Shown here: positions 978 to 9,329 of the stretch, piece by piece
Position numbering within the stretch: position 1 is the first letter of the stretch
Layout of the letters: every line of letters begins with the position of its first letter
Source of the DNA: Halogeometricum sp. S1BR25-6
GTDB taxonomy: Archaea; Halobacteriota; Halobacteria; Halobacteriales; Haloferacaceae
NCBI RefSeq assembly: GCF_031624495.1
Contig: NZ_JAMQOP010000004.1
Span: 372,001 to 436,000, forward strand
DNA length: 64,000 nucleotides
Reading direction: 5' to 3'
The notes under the pieces: model-generated
The model's input: the letters and a program-made list of their open reading frames with translations, nothing else
Database searches by the model: none
Told to the model about the DNA's origin: nothing
Translations under genes and position numbers: made by a program

Positions 978-1565
978 ATGGCAAACGTAATCGTCGTCGG
1001 AGGCGGTCCCGCCGGTCTGAGCGCCGCGATGTTCGCGCGGAAGAACGGTCTCGAAACCACCGTGTTCGACACCGACAAGACGTGGATGCACAAGGCCCAC
1101 CTGTTCAACTATCCCGGAATCGGCTCGCAGGACGGAACCGTGTTCATGGAGACGCTCCGCCGGCAGGTGGACGCGTTCGGCGTCGAACGCGAGGAGGCCG
1201 AGGTGACCGACGTGTCGTCGGACGGCGACGGCTTCACCGTCACCGTCGACGGCGAGGACCACGAGGCCGACTACGTCGTCCTCGCGACCGGCGCGAACCG
1301 CGACCTCGCGGAGTCGCTGGGCTGTGACCTCACCGACGAGGACACCGTCGACGTCGGCGTGACGATGGAGACGAGCGTCGAGGGCGCCTACGCCACGGGC
1401 GCGATGGTCCGCACCGAGGAGTGGCAGGCCGTCATCGCCGCCGGCGACGGCGCCGCCGCCGCGCTCAACATCCTCTCGACGGAGAAGGGCGAGAACTACC
1501 ACGACTTCGACGTGCCGGCCGACGCCGACGAGACGTTCGGCGGCATGGTCGACGAGGACGTCTGA
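978..1565 (+). CDS. Small FAD/NAD(P)-binding oxidoreductase, thioredoxin-reductase-like, 195 aa
   Basis: The N-terminus VIVVGGGPAGLSAAMFARKN is a typical FAD Rossmann GxGxxG dinucleotide fold, followed by an acidic strand end (TTVFDTD). DYVVLATGANRDLAESLG matches the ATG motif of pyridine-nucleotide-disulfide oxidoreductases, and AYATGAMVRTEEWQAVIAAGDGAAAALNIL matches the C-terminal FAD-contacting motif. At 195 residues it is shorter than thioredoxin reductase (about 310) and lacks both the NAD(P) domain and a CxxC, so it is a minimal FAD-domain protein rather than a true TrxB. The electron donor and acceptor are unknown. Confidence 0.8.
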   Translation: MANVIVVGGGPAGLSAAMFARKNGLETTVFDTDKTWMHKAHLFNYPGIGSQDGTVFMETLRRQVDAFGVEREEAEVTDVSSDGDGFTVTVDGEDHEADYVVLATGANRDLAESLGCDLTDEDTVDVGVTMETSVEGAYATGAMVRTEEWQAVIAAGDGAAAALNILSTEKGENYHDFDVPADADETFGGMVDEDV

Positions 1566-1666
1566 GCGGTCGCCGCGCGGACCCGTTTCTCTCTTTATTT
1601 CGACAGTTTCGCCCCGTCCGAACGGAAACTGCAAAGAGCGTCGGACGCGGTGGGAGTACCGGACCC

Positions 1667-2803
1667 GTGCGATACCACCGAAGCGCAGTGCTCGTCGGCC
1701 TCGTCGTTCTCGCCCTCGCGGGGAGCATCCTGCTCGGCGCGCCCGGGAGCGAGGAGACGGTGCTGCCGCGGGAGAACCAACTCATCCAACCGGAGGACAC
1801 CGGGACGCAGGTGTGGCCGTACACCAGTCGGAGTCGGTCCGTGACGGGCCGAACCCTCGCGCTCAACGTCCTCATCGTCGGCGACCCCGACCGGACGAAG
1901 CGGGCGCTGACGAACCGCGCGGAGACGAACTGGACGACCGTCGAGGGTGACGAGGCCACTGCCGGCGAGTCGGAGTGGCAACCGGCCCGCGGCGCGTCGC
2001 GCTACACCTACGTCACCGTCGACCCGAACATCACCGGCCGCTGGTTCGAGTCGGAGTACCAGTTGGCGACCGGCACCTACCTCGGCCAACGAGTGCACAT
2101 CCGCGCGTACCCGGCGCCCTCGGGCAACTGGACGGCGTTTCAGGCGCACACCGAGTACTGGGATTGGCTCCGCCTGCGGCACACCGTCACCGGCGTCGCC
2201 CCCGGCGCCAGATTCCTCGAACGCGACCTGCGCGACGAACCGTTCGTCGAGCGCATCAGCCGCGAGTACCACGGTCTCGGCGGGGGCGGCAGCGACGGCT
2301 GGATAACGATAATCGAACTCGTCTCGGCCGCGGGCGCGGCCGGCGCGGCCGCCTCCATCGTACCGCTCGGGGACCGACACCGCGACGTCGCCGACGCCGC
2401 CGTCCTCCCGGTGACGCTCGCGGGTCTCGTCCTAGGCGTCCGGTCGGCCGGAATCGCGCTGGAGCACGCGATTCCGGGCGTCACCCCGAAACTGTTCGCC
2501 GCGGTGCTCTACCCCGTCGTCGTCGCCGGCCCGCCGTTCCTCGTCACCATCTTCGCGCGCGACCGGCCGGCGACGCGGTCGGCGCTGCTCGCCGCCGCGG
2601 GACTGGGCGCCGGCGTCGTCCTCGACCTCGGCGCCGTGGGCGCGACGACCGTCTCCGTGCAGTTCGTCCTCCACCGGGTGGCGCTGGTCAGCGCGCTCGG
2701 CCTGTTCGCGGTCGGCGTCGCGCGCCAGGACAGGCGGACCATCAGCGCCGGAGCCGTGGCGTGGCTCGTGGCGCTGGGGCTACCGCTGTTCGGCATCGTG
2801 TGA
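1667..2803 (+). CDS. Polytopic membrane protein with extracytoplasmic LssY_C-like domain, 378 aa
   Basis: Starting at GTG 1667, residues 5-25 form a membrane helix (SAVLVGLVVLALAGSILLG). About 160 extracytoplasmic residues follow, in which ALNVLIVGDPDRTKRALTNR, YLGQRVHIRAYPAP and AHTEYWDWLRLRHTVTG resemble the LssY C-terminal domain (proposed phosphatase-associated; function unproven). The C-terminal third has about five to six hydrophobic helices. In-frame codons further upstream overlap the flavoprotein gene, so the GTG just before the first membrane helix is preferred. The LssY resemblance is from memory of the family pattern and is moderate. Confidence 0.6.
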   Translation: MRYHRSAVLVGLVVLALAGSILLGAPGSEETVLPRENQLIQPEDTGTQVWPYTSRSRSVTGRTLALNVLIVGDPDRTKRALTNRAETNWTTVEGDEATAGESEWQPARGASRYTYVTVDPNITGRWFESEYQLATGTYLGQRVHIRAYPAPSGNWTAFQAHTEYWDWLRLRHTVTGVAPGARFLERDLRDEPFVERISREYHGLGGGGSDGWITIIELVSAAGAAGAAASIVPLGDRHRDVADAAVLPVTLAGLVLGVRSAGIALEHAIPGVTPKLFAAVLYPVVVAGPPFLVTIFARDRPATRSALLAAAGLGAGVVLDLGAVGATTVSVQFVLHRVALVSALGLFAVGVARQDRRTISAGAVAWLVALGLPLFGIV

Positions 2804-2838: not shown

Positions 2839-4428
2839 CTACTCCTCGCCGAGCGAGCGGTAGATGGCGACGCCGTCGTTCTCGAAGGCGAGTTCCCAGC
2901 GCTGCGAGGCCTCGAAGGAGCGTTCGAGCGTGCCGAACTGCACCTCGCTGGCGCCGCGGACCGTGTAGTGGCCCTTCGGGACGTAGACGTAGTCGGGGTT
3001 CGCGTCCACCGACTGCATCGCCGTCTCCACGCAGGTTGCGCTCTGACAGGTCGAGGCGTTCACGTAGGCGTCCGTCTGCCCCTCGTACACCTCCGGCTCC
3101 TCCCACTCGACGCCCCACATCCCGACCAGAATCGTCCGCTGGGTCAGCGCCGGGAACCACTCGGCGGCGTCGCCGAGGACGACGAACGTCGCGTCCGACG
3201 GCGTCTCGGCCGCGGCCCACGCCATCGCGTCCACCGCCTCGTCGTCGAGGAACTCGGGCGTCGAGGGGTCTGACGGGAGCGTGTTCTGGTAGGCGAGAAC
3301 CGTCCCCCCGCCGAGGGACGCGACGACGACCAAGAGCGCGACGCCCGCGGCGCGCCAGTCGAGGCCGCCCGTCCGGCCGTCGAGGGTCCGCGCGAACCGT
3401 TCGGTGGGGGAGAAGCGACGCACGGCGTCGAAGCCGGCGGCGACGAGGGCGAACGTTCCGACGGTGTAGACGAACCGGGGCTGTTGGAACAGCAGTTCCG
3501 CGGCGGCGACCCACGCCGGGAGCAGTAGGTCCCGGCGGACGGCGAGGAGGTAGGCCGCGGCGAGCAACGGGACGAGCGTGTACAGCGAGATGCCGCCGAA
3601 TATCGCCTCGACGCCGCCGCCGATGCCGCCGTGGGTCCCCGCGGCGGAGGTGAACACGTCGGGACCGTGCGTGGAGACGGCCCAGAGGAGCCACGGGCTG
3701 GCGATGACCGCGCCGCCGACGCCGACGACGGCGCCGCGGAGGAGACCGGCGAGCGAGCGGTCGAGCACGAGCCAGAGCAACAGGTAGCTCACGACGGTGA
3801 ACAGGGTGTACGTCGGGTGCGACAGCACCGTCAGTCCGAAGGCGACGACGCCCGCGACCAGTGCGCGGCGGTCGCCGGTCGTAAACAATCGGTAGCCCGC
3901 GCAGATGGCCGTCAGCGCGTACAGGAAGGCGAACCCGCGGACGACCCCACCCGCCGAGAGGTGCCACTCCAGTATCTGCGGGTTCAGCGCGACGCCCGCC
4001 GCCGCGACGGTCCCCGCCGGCCGCGAGTCCAGCAGGTCGCGGGCGAGCACGTACACGGGAATCTGAACGGCGACGACGGCCACCGCGGGGAGGAAGCGCG
4101 CGACGGCGACCGGGCCGAATCCGATGTCGCGGAGCACCGCGAACACGTAGAACTGCAGCGGCGGGTAGGCGAAGGGGACGCCGTCAGCCGTGTAGCCGGG
4201 GATGCGCGCCGGCGGGAGGTAGCCGTTCGCGGCGATTTCGCGGGCGATCTGCGCGTACAGGCCCGCGCCGTAGGCCGGGTAGGGGTTCGTCGCGAGGTAC
4301 ACGGCAACGGAGACCAGTGCCGGGAGGACCGCCAAGACGAGCCACCTGCGGTCGCGCACGTCGAGGGGGTGGCCGCCCTCGTGCCGGGGTGAGCGGGCGA
4401 ACCGGGAACGAAGCGAAGAGTCTGCCAC
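2839..4428 (-). CDS. GT-C type membrane glycosyltransferase-like protein, 529 aa
   Basis: A basic cytoplasmic N-terminus is followed by about ten membrane segments in the first 370 residues and a roughly 130-residue C-terminal extracytoplasmic domain containing two close Cys (NASTCQSATCVETAM). The first large loop after helix 1 (YPAYGAGLYAQIAREIAANG) and the overall layout resemble PMT/ArnT/DolP-mannose mannosyltransferases, which move a sugar from a polyprenyl phosphate donor to a lipid or protein outside the cell. No acidic catalytic pair can be assigned with confidence. It starts 2 bases after the stop of the arylsulfotransferase-like gene, so the two form an operon and may act on the same surface glycan or lipid. 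Confidence 0.6.
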   Translation of the reverse strand: MADSSLRSRFARSPRHEGGHPLDVRDRRWLVLAVLPALVSVAVYLATNPYPAYGAGLYAQIAREIAANGYLPPARIPGYTADGVPFAYPPLQFYVFAVLRDIGFGPVAVARFLPAVAVVAVQIPVYVLARDLLDSRPAGTVAAAGVALNPQILEWHLSAGGVVRGFAFLYALTAICAGYRLFTTGDRRALVAGVVAFGLTVLSHPTYTLFTVVSYLLLWLVLDRSLAGLLRGAVVGVGGAVIASPWLLWAVSTHGPDVFTSAAGTHGGIGGGVEAIFGGISLYTLVPLLAAAYLLAVRRDLLLPAWVAAAELLFQQPRFVYTVGTFALVAAGFDAVRRFSPTERFARTLDGRTGGLDWRAAGVALLVVVASLGGGTVLAYQNTLPSDPSTPEFLDDEAVDAMAWAAAETPSDATFVVLGDAAEWFPALTQRTILVGMWGVEWEEPEVYEGQTDAYVNASTCQSATCVETAMQSVDANPDYVYVPKGHYTVRGASEVQFGTLERSFEASQRWELAFENDGVAIYRSLGEE

Positions 4429-4430
4429 GT

Positions 4431-5822
4431 CTACTTCCTCCGAACGCGGAGCGGCGACTGAAAGCTAACGGTACGGCTCGACCAGCGGTACTCGAGCGTC
4501 CCCCAGACGGCGAGCGACCCGAGGAGCGCGAGGACGGCGAGGCCCTCGAGGAAGCCCACCCAGCGCGGGAAGGCGTAGGAAATCGCGTTGCGCACCGTCG
4601 CCGGAACCAGCGACGCGACGCGCGAGGTCAGCGTCGGTTCGAGGTCCGACGCCGTCCGCGAGGGGAGGCCGAGGCTCGCGGCGCTCTCGCCGCCGGCGCT
4701 CTCGTCGCCCGTCCCGAGTCGTTCGGATTCGTAGGGGAAGCCCACGGAGGCGGTCCAGACGACCTCCCCCTCCTCGTCGATTTCGAACGTGCGGTCGCCG
4801 TTCGAATCGGTGATGAGCGTGTGGCCGTTCGGCAGGCGGTCGGCGTCGCGCGGCCACTGCATCCGTCGGTCGACCCACGTCCACGACTCGACCCACTCGC
4901 CGTTCTCGCGCTGGTACTCTATCACGCGGCCGTTTTCGGAGTCCGCGACGAGCAGCGCCGGACCGCCCTCGTCGGCGGGGATGAAGTCGGGGTTGTGCTG
5001 CTCGTACAGTATCGAGTGATTGTCGTCAGTCCCGAGGGTCCACTCCTCCATCAGCCCCCGTCCGGGGTCGATGAACACGACTTGGTCGTGGTTGCGGAGG
5101 CTCACCATCACCGCCCGTTCGCCGTCGACGGTGACGGACTCCACGTCGTTGAGGTGCGTCCAATCTTCGGGAAACGGCCCGCCGCTGGTCGCCACGTCGA
5201 AATCCGACTGCGCGTCCCACTCCCACGTCGTCAGGTTCGTCGTCGTGTTGACGACGAACACGCGGTCCTGGTAGATGTCGGCGACGAGGAGGCGGTCGGG
5301 ACCGAGGCGGTCCACGTCGTGCCACCGGGTGGAGTGTTTCCCCGGCGTGATGCGGCTGAACACCTCTTCTGACTCGCCGGTGGTGAGGTTCACCCGTTCG
5401 ACGCCGTTGCGGGTGCAGACCGTCTCGCCGCACTCGTCGGCGTCGAGGTGGTCGGCGTAGACGAACTCGACGGTCGCCGTCGTGTTCGGGACCGGGTCGA
5501 CGTCCCAGTACCGGGTGTGCTCGTTCTGGTAGTAGTAGATGCTGCCGTCGGGCGCGAAGGCGACGAGTTCGGCCTGCGCGCGGGGACTGTCGCTCTCGTC
5601 GCTGACGAACGCGTTCGAGTCCGTCGCCACGACGGTGATATCGTCTCGGGGCGGGACGACCGGTGCCCGGTCGCCCGTCCGGAACGCCTGTTCGACCGCC
5701 GGGTCGCCCGTCACCCGGTCGTTGTTCCGCTGCGCGTCCACGTAGCCGACGGCGAGGACGACCGACGAGACGAGGACCACCGCCGCGAGCAGACCGCGGA
5801 GGGCTCGCCGATTGGAAGCCAT
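4431..5822 (-). CDS. Arylsulfotransferase-family (ASST-like) membrane-anchored beta-propeller protein, 463 aa
   Basis: One N-terminal membrane helix (residues 7-27) leads to a secreted-side domain with repeated propeller-like blades, each with an aspartate-rich turn: LVAFAPDGSIYYY, WHDVDRLGPDRLLVADIYQDRVFV, THLNDVESVTVDGERAVMVSLRN, NPDFI and ALLVADSENGRVIEYQ, RDADRLPNGHTLITDSNGDRTFEI. This is the pattern of archaeal arylsulfotransferase (PF14269-type) proteins. A second hydrophobic helix (about 430-450) and basic tail end the protein. True ASSTs transfer sulfate between phenols through a catalytic His; His residues occur in the blades but activity is not proven. The gene lies upstream of the GT-C gene with a 2-base gap. 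Confidence 0.65.
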   Translation of the reverse strand: MASNRRALRGLLAAVVLVSSVVLAVGYVDAQRNNDRVTGDPAVEQAFRTGDRAPVVPPRDDITVVATDSNAFVSDESDSPRAQAELVAFAPDGSIYYYQNEHTRYWDVDPVPNTTATVEFVYADHLDADECGETVCTRNGVERVNLTTGESEEVFSRITPGKHSTRWHDVDRLGPDRLLVADIYQDRVFVVNTTTNLTTWEWDAQSDFDVATSGGPFPEDWTHLNDVESVTVDGERAVMVSLRNHDQVVFIDPGRGLMEEWTLGTDDNHSILYEQHNPDFIPADEGGPALLVADSENGRVIEYQRENGEWVESWTWVDRRMQWPRDADRLPNGHTLITDSNGDRTFEIDEEGEVVWTASVGFPYESERLGTGDESAGGESAASLGLPSRTASDLEPTLTSRVASLVPATVRNAISYAFPRWVGFLEGLAVLALLGSLAVWGTLEYRWSSRTVSFQSPLRVRRK

Positions 5823-5874: not shown

Positions 5875-6411
5875 TCAGCGGCGGGGGGTTCCGGGCGTCT
5901 CGGAGGCGTCCTGAGCCTCCGCCTCCACCGCGCCGCCGGCCGATTCCGTCGCGTCGGTCGACCGGCGGCCGACGACGATGCCGAGGGCGACGACTCCCCA
6001 GAGGAGGGCCGCGCCCCACCCGGAGTGAATCGATGCCGCGACGCCCACACGCTCGGTCGTCAGGGGGTAGAGCCACGCGACGCCGCTCTTCGTGAACGAG
6101 TCGACGAGGAGGTGCGAGGAGAGGCCGAGCGCCGCCGCCCCGGCGGACCACCGCGGGCGCCTCGCGGCGGCGACGAGGGCGACGACGGCCGCGGCGAACG
6201 CGAGCGTGTGCGTCAGTCCGCGGTGGTTCAGCGGGAACGCCCACGCGAGCGGGAACAGCAGGTCGACGTCCGGGAGGACGGCGCCGACGACGCCGGCCCG
6301 CGGCGGACGGTCGGTGAACGCGACGACGAGCGCGTACCCGACCGCGGCGTGCGTCGCAACGGCGAACAGGAGGTACGCGAGGTGGTCGAGCGCGGGACCG
6401 AGAAGCGACAC
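5875..6411 (-). CDS. YdjM-type membrane-bound metal-dependent hydrolase, 178 aa
   Basis: Motifs of the LexA-regulated YdjM/DUF457 membrane hydrolase family are clear: LPDVD, HRGLTHTL and SHLLVDSFTKSGVAWLYPL supply conserved Asp and His metal ligands between about four membrane helices. The GTG at 6411 is chosen because a TATA-like element (CTTATGA read on the plus strand at 6434-6440) lies about 27 bases upstream, giving a leaderless transcript; a longer in-frame extension to 6486 would place that box inside the coding region. The C-terminal tail is hydrophilic. The substrate is unknown; an envelope or lipid substrate has been suggested for the family. Confidence 0.75.
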   Translation of the reverse strand: MSLLGPALDHLAYLLFAVATHAAVGYALVVAFTDRPPRAGVVGAVLPDVDLLFPLAWAFPLNHRGLTHTLAFAAAVVALVAAARRPRWSAGAAALGLSSHLLVDSFTKSGVAWLYPLTTERVGVAASIHSGWGAALLWGVVALGIVVGRRSTDATESAGGAVEAEAQDASETPGTPRR

Positions 6412-6522
6412 GGTCGGCGGTACGGCGAGTGTACTTATGAAAACGGGGTTCGTAAGTTCCGTACGAACACCGACTCGGATTCCCAACGGATAAGAGCGAG
6501 CCGAGAGGAGTGAAGAGAAGAG

Positions 6523-8490
6523 ATGCCACAGTCGTCGCCCTCCACGGTCCGTCGGCGAGCCGTCCTCGGGACGCTCGCGACAGGCGTGACTGCGCTGTCA
6601 GGCGGGTGTGTGCGCCGGTTGCGGACGGTCGCGGGCTGGCGGTCGGCGAACCAAGTCTCGCTCGAAATCAAAACCGTGCCGGCCGACGCGGACCCCTACG
6701 CCCTGCGCATCGCGCGTCAGGTCGCGGCGTGGTTCCGGGCGGCCGGTATCGACGCGCAGGTCACGCCGATGGCCAGCGAGGAACTGCTCCGGCAGGTGCT
6801 GGTGCAGAACGACTTCGAGCTGTTCGTCGCGCGGCTCCCCGACCAGTTTCACGAACCCGACGGACTCTACTCGCTCTTGCACTCGCGGTTCGCCGACGCC
6901 CCCGGGTGGCAGAACCCGTTCGGCTACGCGAACCTCGACGTCGACGACCTGCTGGAGACGCAGCGCACGACCACCGGCGAGGAGCGGCGCGAGGCGGTGT
7001 ACGAACTCCAGCGGAGCATCGCGCGGACCCAGCCGTTCACACTCCTCTCGTTCCCGGACGACATCCGCGCGGCGCGCACCGACAACTACGGGAACTGGCG
7101 GACCGCCGACCTCGACTCCCCGCTGGGCTATCTGTCGCTGACGCGCAGCGGTGGCGACGGCGACAACGCCGCCCTCGCGTCCGGTACGTCGACGTCGAAC
7201 GGGGCCGACGGAACGGCCGGAGCGGTCCCGAACAGAGGCTCGAATGCGTCGTCGCCGACCGCGACCCCGACCCGGACGCCGACGCCGACTCCCACGCCGA
7301 CGCCGACCGACGTCGCGACGACGACGGACGAGGCGCGCACCCTCCGGACGGCGACAACCGACAAGCGGGCGACGGAGAACCTCAACCCCCTGTCGGTCGA
7401 GTACCGCCGCGACGGGCTCATTACGGGCCTCCTGTACGACTCGCTCGGCGTCGAAACGGGCGACGGCGTCGAGGCGTGGCTGGCGGAATCGTGGGCGTTC
7501 TCCGGGGGCGGAAACGCCCCGAGCGCGTCCGTTCGGCTCCGTCCGGACCTGACGTGGCACGACGGCGAGTCGCTCACCGCCGAGGACGTGGCGTTCACGC
7601 ACCGCCTCCTCGCGGACACCGCGATGGAGACGGGGACGACGACCGAAGACGAGAGCGACGCCCGCATCCCCGCGCCGCGGTTCCAGGGGCGGAACAGCCT
7701 CGTCGCCGACGTGCGCGCGACGGGGACCCGCACCGTCGAGTTCGACTTCGTCGAGTGCGAACCCCAACTGGCGACGCGCGCGTTCACCGTTCCGGTGCTC
7801 CCCGAACACGTCTGGACGGAGCGGACCTCGCGGGCCTCGGTCAGCGGTATCGAAATCGGCCCCGCAACCGAGGCCATCGTGACGAACAACATCCCGCCGG
7901 TCGGGAGCGGTCCCCTCGAGTTCGCCCAGAACACGCCGCGGGAGTCGCTCGTGCTCGAACGGTTCGACGAGCACTTCCTCTTCGAGGCGTCGGCGGAGGC
8001 GGGCGTCCCGGCCCGACCGCCCGAGTTCGAGCGGTTGTCCGTGCAGGTCGTCGGCTCCGACGCGACGGCCGTCGAGATGGTGGCCGACGCCGACGCCGAC
8101 GTGACCGGAACGACCGTCGGCGCCTCGACGGTCCCGCGCATCGGCCGCGCGCCGGACCTCGAACTGCTCGTCGGGCGGTCGGAGACGCCGTTCATCCTCG
8201 GACACAACGCCGGCCGGTCGCCGACGACGAACCCCCGGTTCAGGAACACGCTGGCGCGACTCGTCGACCAGTCGTTCCTCGTGAACGACGTGTTCGGCGG
8301 CTACGCCCGACCCGCGGTGAGTCCGCTCGCGGGGACCAAGTGGCTCCCCGACGACCTGCGGTGGGGAGACGAGAACCCCGTGACGCCGTTCATCGGGAGC
8401 GACGGGGAACTGAACGTCGACCGGGCGAGGGAGGCGTTCCGCGACGCGGGCTATCAGTACTCCGACGGACGGCTATTGGAGGGCAACTGA
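6523..8490 (+). CDS. Oligopeptide-type ABC solute-binding lipoprotein with apparently circularly permuted lobes, 655 aa
   Basis: The N-terminus has a twin-arginine run and lipobox (VRRRAVLGTLATGVTALSGGC, lipid Cys 29). Residues 44-200 look like the C-terminal part of family-5 solute-binding proteins: IARQVAAWFRAAGIDAQV, then NDFELFVARL, then EPDGLYSLLHS, YANLDVDDLLETQ and PFTLLSF. A Ser/Thr-Pro linker (TPTRTPTPTPTPTPT, about 209-270) follows. Residues 272-655 then look like the N-terminal part: TENLNPLSVEYRRDGLITGL, LAESWAF, RLRPDLTWHDGESLTAEDVA, and finally LARLVDQSFLVNDVFGG and AREAFRDAGYQYSDGR, which normally precedes the segment found here first. No permease or ATPase genes are adjacent. 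The ligand is unknown. The start overlaps the PAP2 gene at its end (TGATG). Confidence 0.75.
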   Translation: MPQSSPSTVRRRAVLGTLATGVTALSGGCVRRLRTVAGWRSANQVSLEIKTVPADADPYALRIARQVAAWFRAAGIDAQVTPMASEELLRQVLVQNDFELFVARLPDQFHEPDGLYSLLHSRFADAPGWQNPFGYANLDVDDLLETQRTTTGEERREAVYELQRSIARTQPFTLLSFPDDIRAARTDNYGNWRTADLDSPLGYLSLTRSGGDGDNAALASGTSTSNGADGTAGAVPNRGSNASSPTATPTRTPTPTPTPTPTDVATTTDEARTLRTATTDKRATENLNPLSVEYRRDGLITGLLYDSLGVETGDGVEAWLAESWAFSGGGNAPSASVRLRPDLTWHDGESLTAEDVAFTHRLLADTAMETGTTTEDESDARIPAPRFQGRNSLVADVRATGTRTVEFDFVECEPQLATRAFTVPVLPEHVWTERTSRASVSGIEIGPATEAIVTNNIPPVGSGPLEFAQNTPRESLVLERFDEHFLFEASAEAGVPARPPEFERLSVQVVGSDATAVEMVADADADVTGTTVGASTVPRIGRAPDLELLVGRSETPFILGHNAGRSPTTNPRFRNTLARLVDQSFLVNDVFGGYARPAVSPLAGTKWLPDDLRWGDENPVTPFIGSDGELNVDRAREAFRDAGYQYSDGRLLEGN

Positions 8491-9329
8491 TGGCGCTCGT
8501 CGACGTCGTCCTGCAGGTGGGGGCGGGCGTGTCCGCGCTCCTCGTCGTCGCCGCGGTGCTCGTCGTCGGACCGTCGCGACTCCGAACCGCCCCCCGGACC
8601 GTCCGGTCGAACGCCCGCGCCGTCGCCCCGACGTTCGTCGCCCTCGTCGCCGTCCTCGCCGCCAACGGCGTCATCCGCGACATCGGCGTCGAACTGTCGT
8701 GGCTCATCGGGCTGAACATCACCGGCTACATTCACGCCATCGAGGGAAGCACCGTCGCGTTCGTGCAGTCGTTCGCGACGCCGGCGCTGACCGCGTACTT
8801 CGGGTTCGTCTACATCTTCGGCTACGTGTTCCTCCTCGTGTTCCCGCTGGCGGCGTACGCGATGTACGAGGACGCCCGCCCCCTCCGCGTCGTCCTGTTC
8901 GCCTACATCGTCAACTACGGCGTCGGCCTGCTCTGTTACATTCTGTTCGTCGCCTACGGCCCGCGGAACTTCATGCCCGACATGGTGGAGCCGCTCCTGT
9001 ACAACAGTTGGCCGCAGGCGCAGTTGCTGACGAGTCAGGTGAACGTGAACACGAACGTGTTCCCCTCGCTGCACACCTCGCTGTCGGGCACCGTCGCGCT
9101 CCTGGCGTGGCGGTTCCGCGGCGTCTACCCCCGGTGGGTACCCGTCGCGCTCTTTCTGGCGGTGTCCATCGCCGTCTCGACGATGTACCTCGGCATCCAC
9201 TGGGCGACGGACGTGGTCGCCGGTGCGCTCGTCGCGTTCGCGAGCGTCGAGGCGGCGAGCCGCGCCGCCGACCGACAGGAACGGGGCGAGAGCCTGACGC
9301 CGACTCGACTCCGGAAACTGCGCGAGTAG
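8490..9329 (+). CDS. PAP2 superfamily phosphatase, inositolphosphotransferase-like membrane protein, 279 aa
   Basis: Seven or so membrane helices carry the PAP2 catalytic motifs of the AUR1/PAP2_3 subgroup: YGPRNFMPD (motif 1 region), NVFPSLHTSLSG (motif 2, catalytic His in SLHTS) and STMYLGIHWATDVVAG (motif 3, His and Asp). Such proteins hydrolyse or transfer lipid phosphate groups at the outer face of the membrane. The ATG overlaps the stop codon of the solute-binding protein gene in a TGATG, indicating translational coupling and suggesting the two products function together, possibly on a phosphorylated lipid or sugar. Confidence 0.85.
   Translation: MALVDVVLQVGAGVSALLVVAAVLVVGPSRLRTAPRTVRSNARAVAPTFVALVAVLAANGVIRDIGVELSWLIGLNITGYIHAIEGSTVAFVQSFATPALTAYFGFVYIFGYVFLLVFPLAAYAMYEDARPLRVVLFAYIVNYGVGLLCYILFVAYGPRNFMPDMVEPLLYNSWPQAQLLTSQVNVNTNVFPSLHTSLSGTVALLAWRFRGVYPRWVPVALFLAVSIAVSTMYLGIHWATDVVAGALVAFASVEAASRAADRQERGESLTPTRLRKLRE

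Follow-up and report, generated by a model that had tools for sequence, protein, structure and literature searches.

Solute-binding proteins (SBPs) are textbook modules, which have also been permuted on purpose for biosensors. The locus described here lies in a stretch of 64,000 nucleotides from Halogeometricum sp. S1BR25-6 (referred to below as the window) and encodes an SBP for which an initial annotation had proposed a permutation of natural origin, together with a tie to a lipid phosphatase of the PAP2 type in place of a transporter. The question raised by this arrangement is whether a permuted binding protein is still part of an importer and, if it is not, what it might do for an enzyme of the membrane.

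Domain order of the lipoprotein

The gene (6523..8490, + strand) encodes a circularly permuted family-5 (Dpp/Opp-type) solute-binding lipoprotein of 655 amino acids, a description that draws on Pfam, on a model of unpermuted SBPs and on an alignment of 53 haloarchaeal sequences of its own family (alignment A1). The protein starts with a Tat-type signal sequence and a lipobox leading to Cys29 (residues 1-29; 6523..6609, +). The twin arginine, Arg11-Arg12, is kept in at least 90% of the 53 sequences and Gly28 and Cys29 are invariant (53/53), and the protein is thus predicted to be exported and anchored as is usual for the family.

Against the Pfam profile SBP_bac_5 (PF00496) the protein gives a whole-profile family match of 133.8 bits (cut-off 32.4), in which residues 316-650 of the native sequence correspond to profile positions 2-284 and a second stretch is matched in addition. 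With the two halves swapped in silico, the test suggested by the initial annotation, a single stretch covering positions 2-360 of 368 is obtained. A model made only from 23 unpermuted family-5 SBPs (bacterial, archaeal and Escherichia coli DppA) agrees with Pfam: residues 47-204 of the native protein align with model positions 341-494 and residues 273-650 with positions 6-332, the two swapped-order blocks scoring 68.8 and 147.9 bits; after rotation, the sequence forms one block from 13 to 493 with 236 bits. The blocks of the family are therefore present in swapped rather than normal N-to-C order, as in a permuted family variant, and the C-terminal half does precede the N-terminal half, as had been claimed. 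The first block (residues 44-212; 6652..7158, +) represents the C-terminal part of a normal SBP according to the model match and the DppA alignment, and the second (residues 272-655; 7336..8487, +) its N-terminal and middle part according to the model and Pfam; a split near residue 270 had been proposed, and the second half in fact starts at about residue 272. When aligned to E. coli DppA, the cut falls between F372 and S373, in the loop that joins the helix ending AGLEKGF to the strand SIDLWAM.

Two outcomes that would have spoken against a permutation, a match in normal order and an unrelated domain at residues 44-200, were looked for and neither was found. The N-terminal residues are matched by the C-terminal ends of DppA models and chains, and the N-terminal piece by itself reaches 72.9 bits with the 23-SBP model, compared with a maximum of 4.9 among 1000 shuffles, which rules out two unrelated domains. 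That the swapped order is an artefact, whether through the fusion of separate pieces of two SBPs or through a mistake in assembly or reading frame, has a negligible probability: rotation yields one continuous match, and independent assemblies supplied over 120 open reading frames, some of them retrieved twice, with the identical order and cut, ruling out an assembly error. From these sequence comparisons we conclude that the circular permutation of the window SBP is real.

Between the blocks, where the ancestral C and N termini are joined, lies a Ser/Thr/Pro-rich linker (residues 213-271; 7159..7335, +; columns 208-290 of alignment A1). The Thr-Pro linker noted initially is present in the window gene and is not a defining trait: it is short or missing in most relatives, and the alignment indicates that it is lineage specific and special to near relatives. 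As a mechanistic part it was ruled out, since most members have a short junction instead.

Spread of the permuted order and number of origins

The host genome encodes 13 SBP_bac_5 proteins over the cut-off, and four of them are permuted at the identical cut, namely the window gene, a paralog at C1:851851-853665 and two further proteins on C4 (168.9 kb) and C2 (1001 kb). When all fetched SBPs were mapped on one normal-order model, unpermuted proteins appeared as single blocks and permuted ones began at about position 320-360 in all but two cases; four proteins (L067, L069, L074 and L176) are permuted too and scored normal only through the overlap rule of the mapping. The permutation as such is no peculiarity of the window gene, being a feature of a large family. 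By score, class A, the haloarchaeal class of the window gene, is present in 73 of the 116 Halobacteria genomes sampled, and more than 60 of its loci conserve the permuted order, genome and locus counts here and below including related genomes.

Restriction of the trait to haloarchaea was ruled out, since permuted SBPs also occur in a sample of 119 genomes from the phylum of Cytobacillus (Bacillota), nearly all of them in Dpp operons. No match over both halves in permuted order was found in 200 Pseudomonadota genomes (the phylum of Phyllobacterium) at the threshold used, and the SBP hits examined from other archaea were all in normal order; the search profiles were seeded with class A, and distant permuted proteins may be undercounted. 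Two Bacillota SBPs from Dpp operons, L195:6098-7939 (-) and L197:6099-7988 (-), are cut at model position ~196 instead of 342 and, because this is elsewhere than the usual site, permutation arose at least twice. Five Bacillota SBPs with the usual cut (L191, L192, L193, L196 and L198) are grouped by the tree with E. coli DppA, apart from the haloarchaeal permuted proteins of importer operons (class B, see below; SH-aLRT 88), a placement hinting at recurrence of the permutation at the same site. One permuted SBP from haloarchaea, L164:6633-8300 (+), is accompanied by Dpp genes and sits on a long branch among unpermuted SBPs; it is a possible further independent permutation. With bacteria added, the permuted label requires four changes on the tree; a single permuted clade has a support of 39 and an AU p value of 0.41, and a common permutation of classes A and B is neither shown nor rejected by the tree.

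Earlier reports of natural permuted SBPs were not found in the open-licence literature, and proteins of the class B type carry only the database name "ABC transporter substrate-binding protein". Permuted proteins all being named simply substrate-binding protein, the annotation deserves a warning.

The PAP2 partner and the two haloarchaeal neighbourhoods

The gene immediately downstream (8490..9329, +) encodes a membrane lipid phosphatase/phosphotransferase of 279 amino acids (PAP2_3; PF14378 E=2.8e-16 and PF01569 E=8e-12, both over cut-off) with intact PSxH and HxxxD-type motifs. The stop codon of the SBP gene overlaps its start codon in the sequence TGATG (8488..8492, +), in keeping with the translational coupling originally noted. 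A comparable overlap is seen in 27 of 64 SBP/PAP2 pairs, and in 57 of the 64 the start codon lies within 60 nt. All 64 PAP2 neighbours carry the GPRN, PSLH and HWxxD residues without variation, which makes an active enzyme very likely.

The window gene falls in class A, which forms one clade (SH-aLRT 99-100) with a PAP2 gene near 61 of its 63 loci, mostly directly downstream, and DppB or DppC near none (0/63), so that an importer operon of the DppABCDF type, with DppB/DppC and DppD/DppF, is not what these genes belong to. Class B proteins, permuted at the same cut, show the opposite pattern, with DppB/C near 35 of 37 loci in ordinary DppBCDF operons and PAP2 near none (0/37). No transporter genes were found beside the window SBP, as first observed; the numerous permease pairs of the host genome lie elsewhere. 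Among the 59 genomes that were also searched for PAP2, class A and this PAP2 are both present in 35, both absent from 24 and never found one without the other (hypergeometric 5e-17, without correction for relatedness), and the survey of haloarchaea that had been called for thus bears out the pair, next to each other at 61/63 loci and matching in presence or absence in 59/59 genomes. That the coupling merely reflects the chance neighbourhood of a housekeeping phosphatase is very improbable: PAP2 copies away from an SBP are also present in some genomes, against which stand the 61 of 63 loci, the gene overlaps and the perfect match of presence and absence.

Several Haloferax species carry the pair. 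In Natrialbaceae a second permuted SBP is found downstream of PAP2, and four loci of this family (L063, L066, L081 and L082) have SBP-PAP2-SBP-PAP2 in a row as a double unit. Two loci with a second class A copy from the genus of the window (L047 and L108) have no PAP2 beside them, which indicates that the SBP can exist away from PAP2, with the pair elsewhere in the genome. Each of the two SBP copies of this genus has a YdjM-like gene next to it (window 5875-6486, -; L108:10779-11441, -), suggesting that SBP and YdjM were duplicated as a block; as a part of the module the YdjM-like gene was ruled out, since it is found only near the Halogeometricum copies and not at other class A loci. In Halolamina pelagica CDK2 the class A SBP (L084:7995-9778) is broken over several frames and, as judged from its reading frames, is probably either a pseudogene or the product of sequencing errors.

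Further upstream in the window are genes for a GT-C (PMT_2-like) membrane glycosyltransferase (2839..4428, -; Pfam PMT_2 E=8.8e-6, just over cut-off), an arylsulfotransferase-like (ASST) protein (4431..5822, -; PF14269 E=1.2e-8) and a membrane protein with an uncertain start codon and no Pfam or NCBIfam match (1421..2803, +). Their counterparts are found near 28, 23 and 22 of the 63 class A loci, respectively, the GT-C and ASST-like neighbours each in under half. The glycosyltransferase gene is accompanied, at several loci of Haloferax and Haladaptatus, by one that was named by eye as sugar-phosphate mutase-like.

Proposed function and comparison with known systems

We propose, with a probability of roughly 0.6, that class A is a permuted, lipid-anchored, transporter-less cluster C SBP that works with its co-translated PAP2 in lipid or glycan turnover. 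As the sequence comparisons show, the ancestral termini are fused and there is a new N-terminus in the helix-strand loop at DppA 372/373. Because this loop lies in what we take to be the lobe without the normal termini, the membrane anchor would have been transferred to the opposite lobe. Class A would have lost, or never had, a DppBCDF transporter of its own; it may have been permuted from its origin and have changed partner later. SBP and PAP2 would form a physical complex, meeting at the outer face of the membrane, where the SBP, positioned over the extracellular PAP2 active site, may capture and present a phosphorylated lipid or lipid-linked sugar; alternatively, within the same proposal, the ligand-bound SBP may gate PAP2. 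The setting would be surface-glycan or lipid turnover, perhaps of lipid-linked glycans, a role suggested by the chemistry of PAP2 and by the recurrent glycosyltransferase and ASST-like neighbours.

Permutation alone is not equal to loss of transport, because class B keeps the same cut within importer operons, and it is the PAP2 partnership that marks class A. The reading implied earlier, in which permutation itself is the mark of a non-transport sensor or scavenger, is therefore not supported, given the identical-cut class B proteins in complete Dpp importer operons. An unlikely, though not negligible, reading is that class A proteins are still importer SBPs which deliver in trans to a distant DppBCDF, with PAP2 acting separately, for example by acting on a phosphorylated precursor at the cell surface and so freeing the solute. 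The genome has permease pairs in number, the class B cousins sit with such permeases, and a precedent for several SBPs sharing one permease is described for DppA1-A5 of Pseudomonas aeruginosa (PMC4206461). Against this reading, DppB/C is near none of the 63 class A loci, and a permease partner in trans would not account for PAP2, whose link to class A is strict and whose co-occurrence with it across genomes is full.

Less probable still is that the SBP acts as a ligand sensor that switches PAP2 and delivers its ligand neither to an enzyme nor to a pore. The fixed pairing with one enzyme and the absence of a pore fit such a role, and in Natrialbaceae, where PAP2 is flanked by another SBP copy, two inputs could be provided. 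Among the class A neighbour clusters, however, neither a signalling domain nor a regulator is conserved, and in sequence and gene context a sensor and a subunit presenting substrate look alike.

Returning to the lipid- or glycan-turnover proposal, its wider form is offered more tentatively: permutation may be a recurrent route by which the anchor-bearing lobe is changed, with one lineage having given up the ABC pore and now serving as the dedicated substrate-presenting subunit of PAP2. If true, this would be a binding-protein-dependent lipid enzyme, which has not been described before. From the natural permutants of importer operons it can be seen at which points evolution has cut the SBP fold, and their presence there suggests that a permuted SBP remains acceptable to the permease. 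The strict SBP-PAP2 pair offers a system, in haloarchaea amenable to genetics, in which the recruitment of a binding protein by a membrane lipid enzyme can be tested.

With the SBPs of family 5 (PF00496; DppA, OppA, NikA and AppA; cluster C), class A shares both halves, lipoprotein export and, once rotated, the full domain content, and it differs from them in the parts swapped at DppA 372/373, the lack of an adjoining permease and the PAP2 partner. Class B, composed of haloarchaeal and Bacillota Dpp-operon proteins, belongs to the same family and has the same cut, but is linked to DppB, DppC and DppD/F and never to PAP2. In DppA the termini of the dipeptide are held by R383 and D436 (PMC12136057). 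Most class A proteins lack this pair of dipeptide anchors (31 aligned; Arg in 2/31 and Asp in 2/31, in a loop where the alignment is uncertain), which says little on the ligand, because many ordinary SBPs here are likewise without them. In its catalytic half, the PAP2 enzyme encoded in the window is similar to PgpB and to undecaprenyl-diphosphate phosphatase (E 2.7e-8 and 8.2e-8, below the cut-offs of the models), whereas the enzyme as a whole forms a haloarchaeal family of its own, co-translated with an SBP. LpqW of mycobacteria has an SBP fold and, as far as we know, is not permuted. This lipoprotein channels phosphatidylinositol mannosides and steers lipid mannosylation (PMC3229680), which makes it a precedent for the proposal that such a protein can serve a lipid pathway instead of transport. 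Like class A, LpqW is an importer-type lipoprotein without a transporter of its own, and it works with membrane enzymes of the lipid and GT-C types; in contrast to class A it has no PAP2 partner, and the two are likened by role and not by homology beyond the family.
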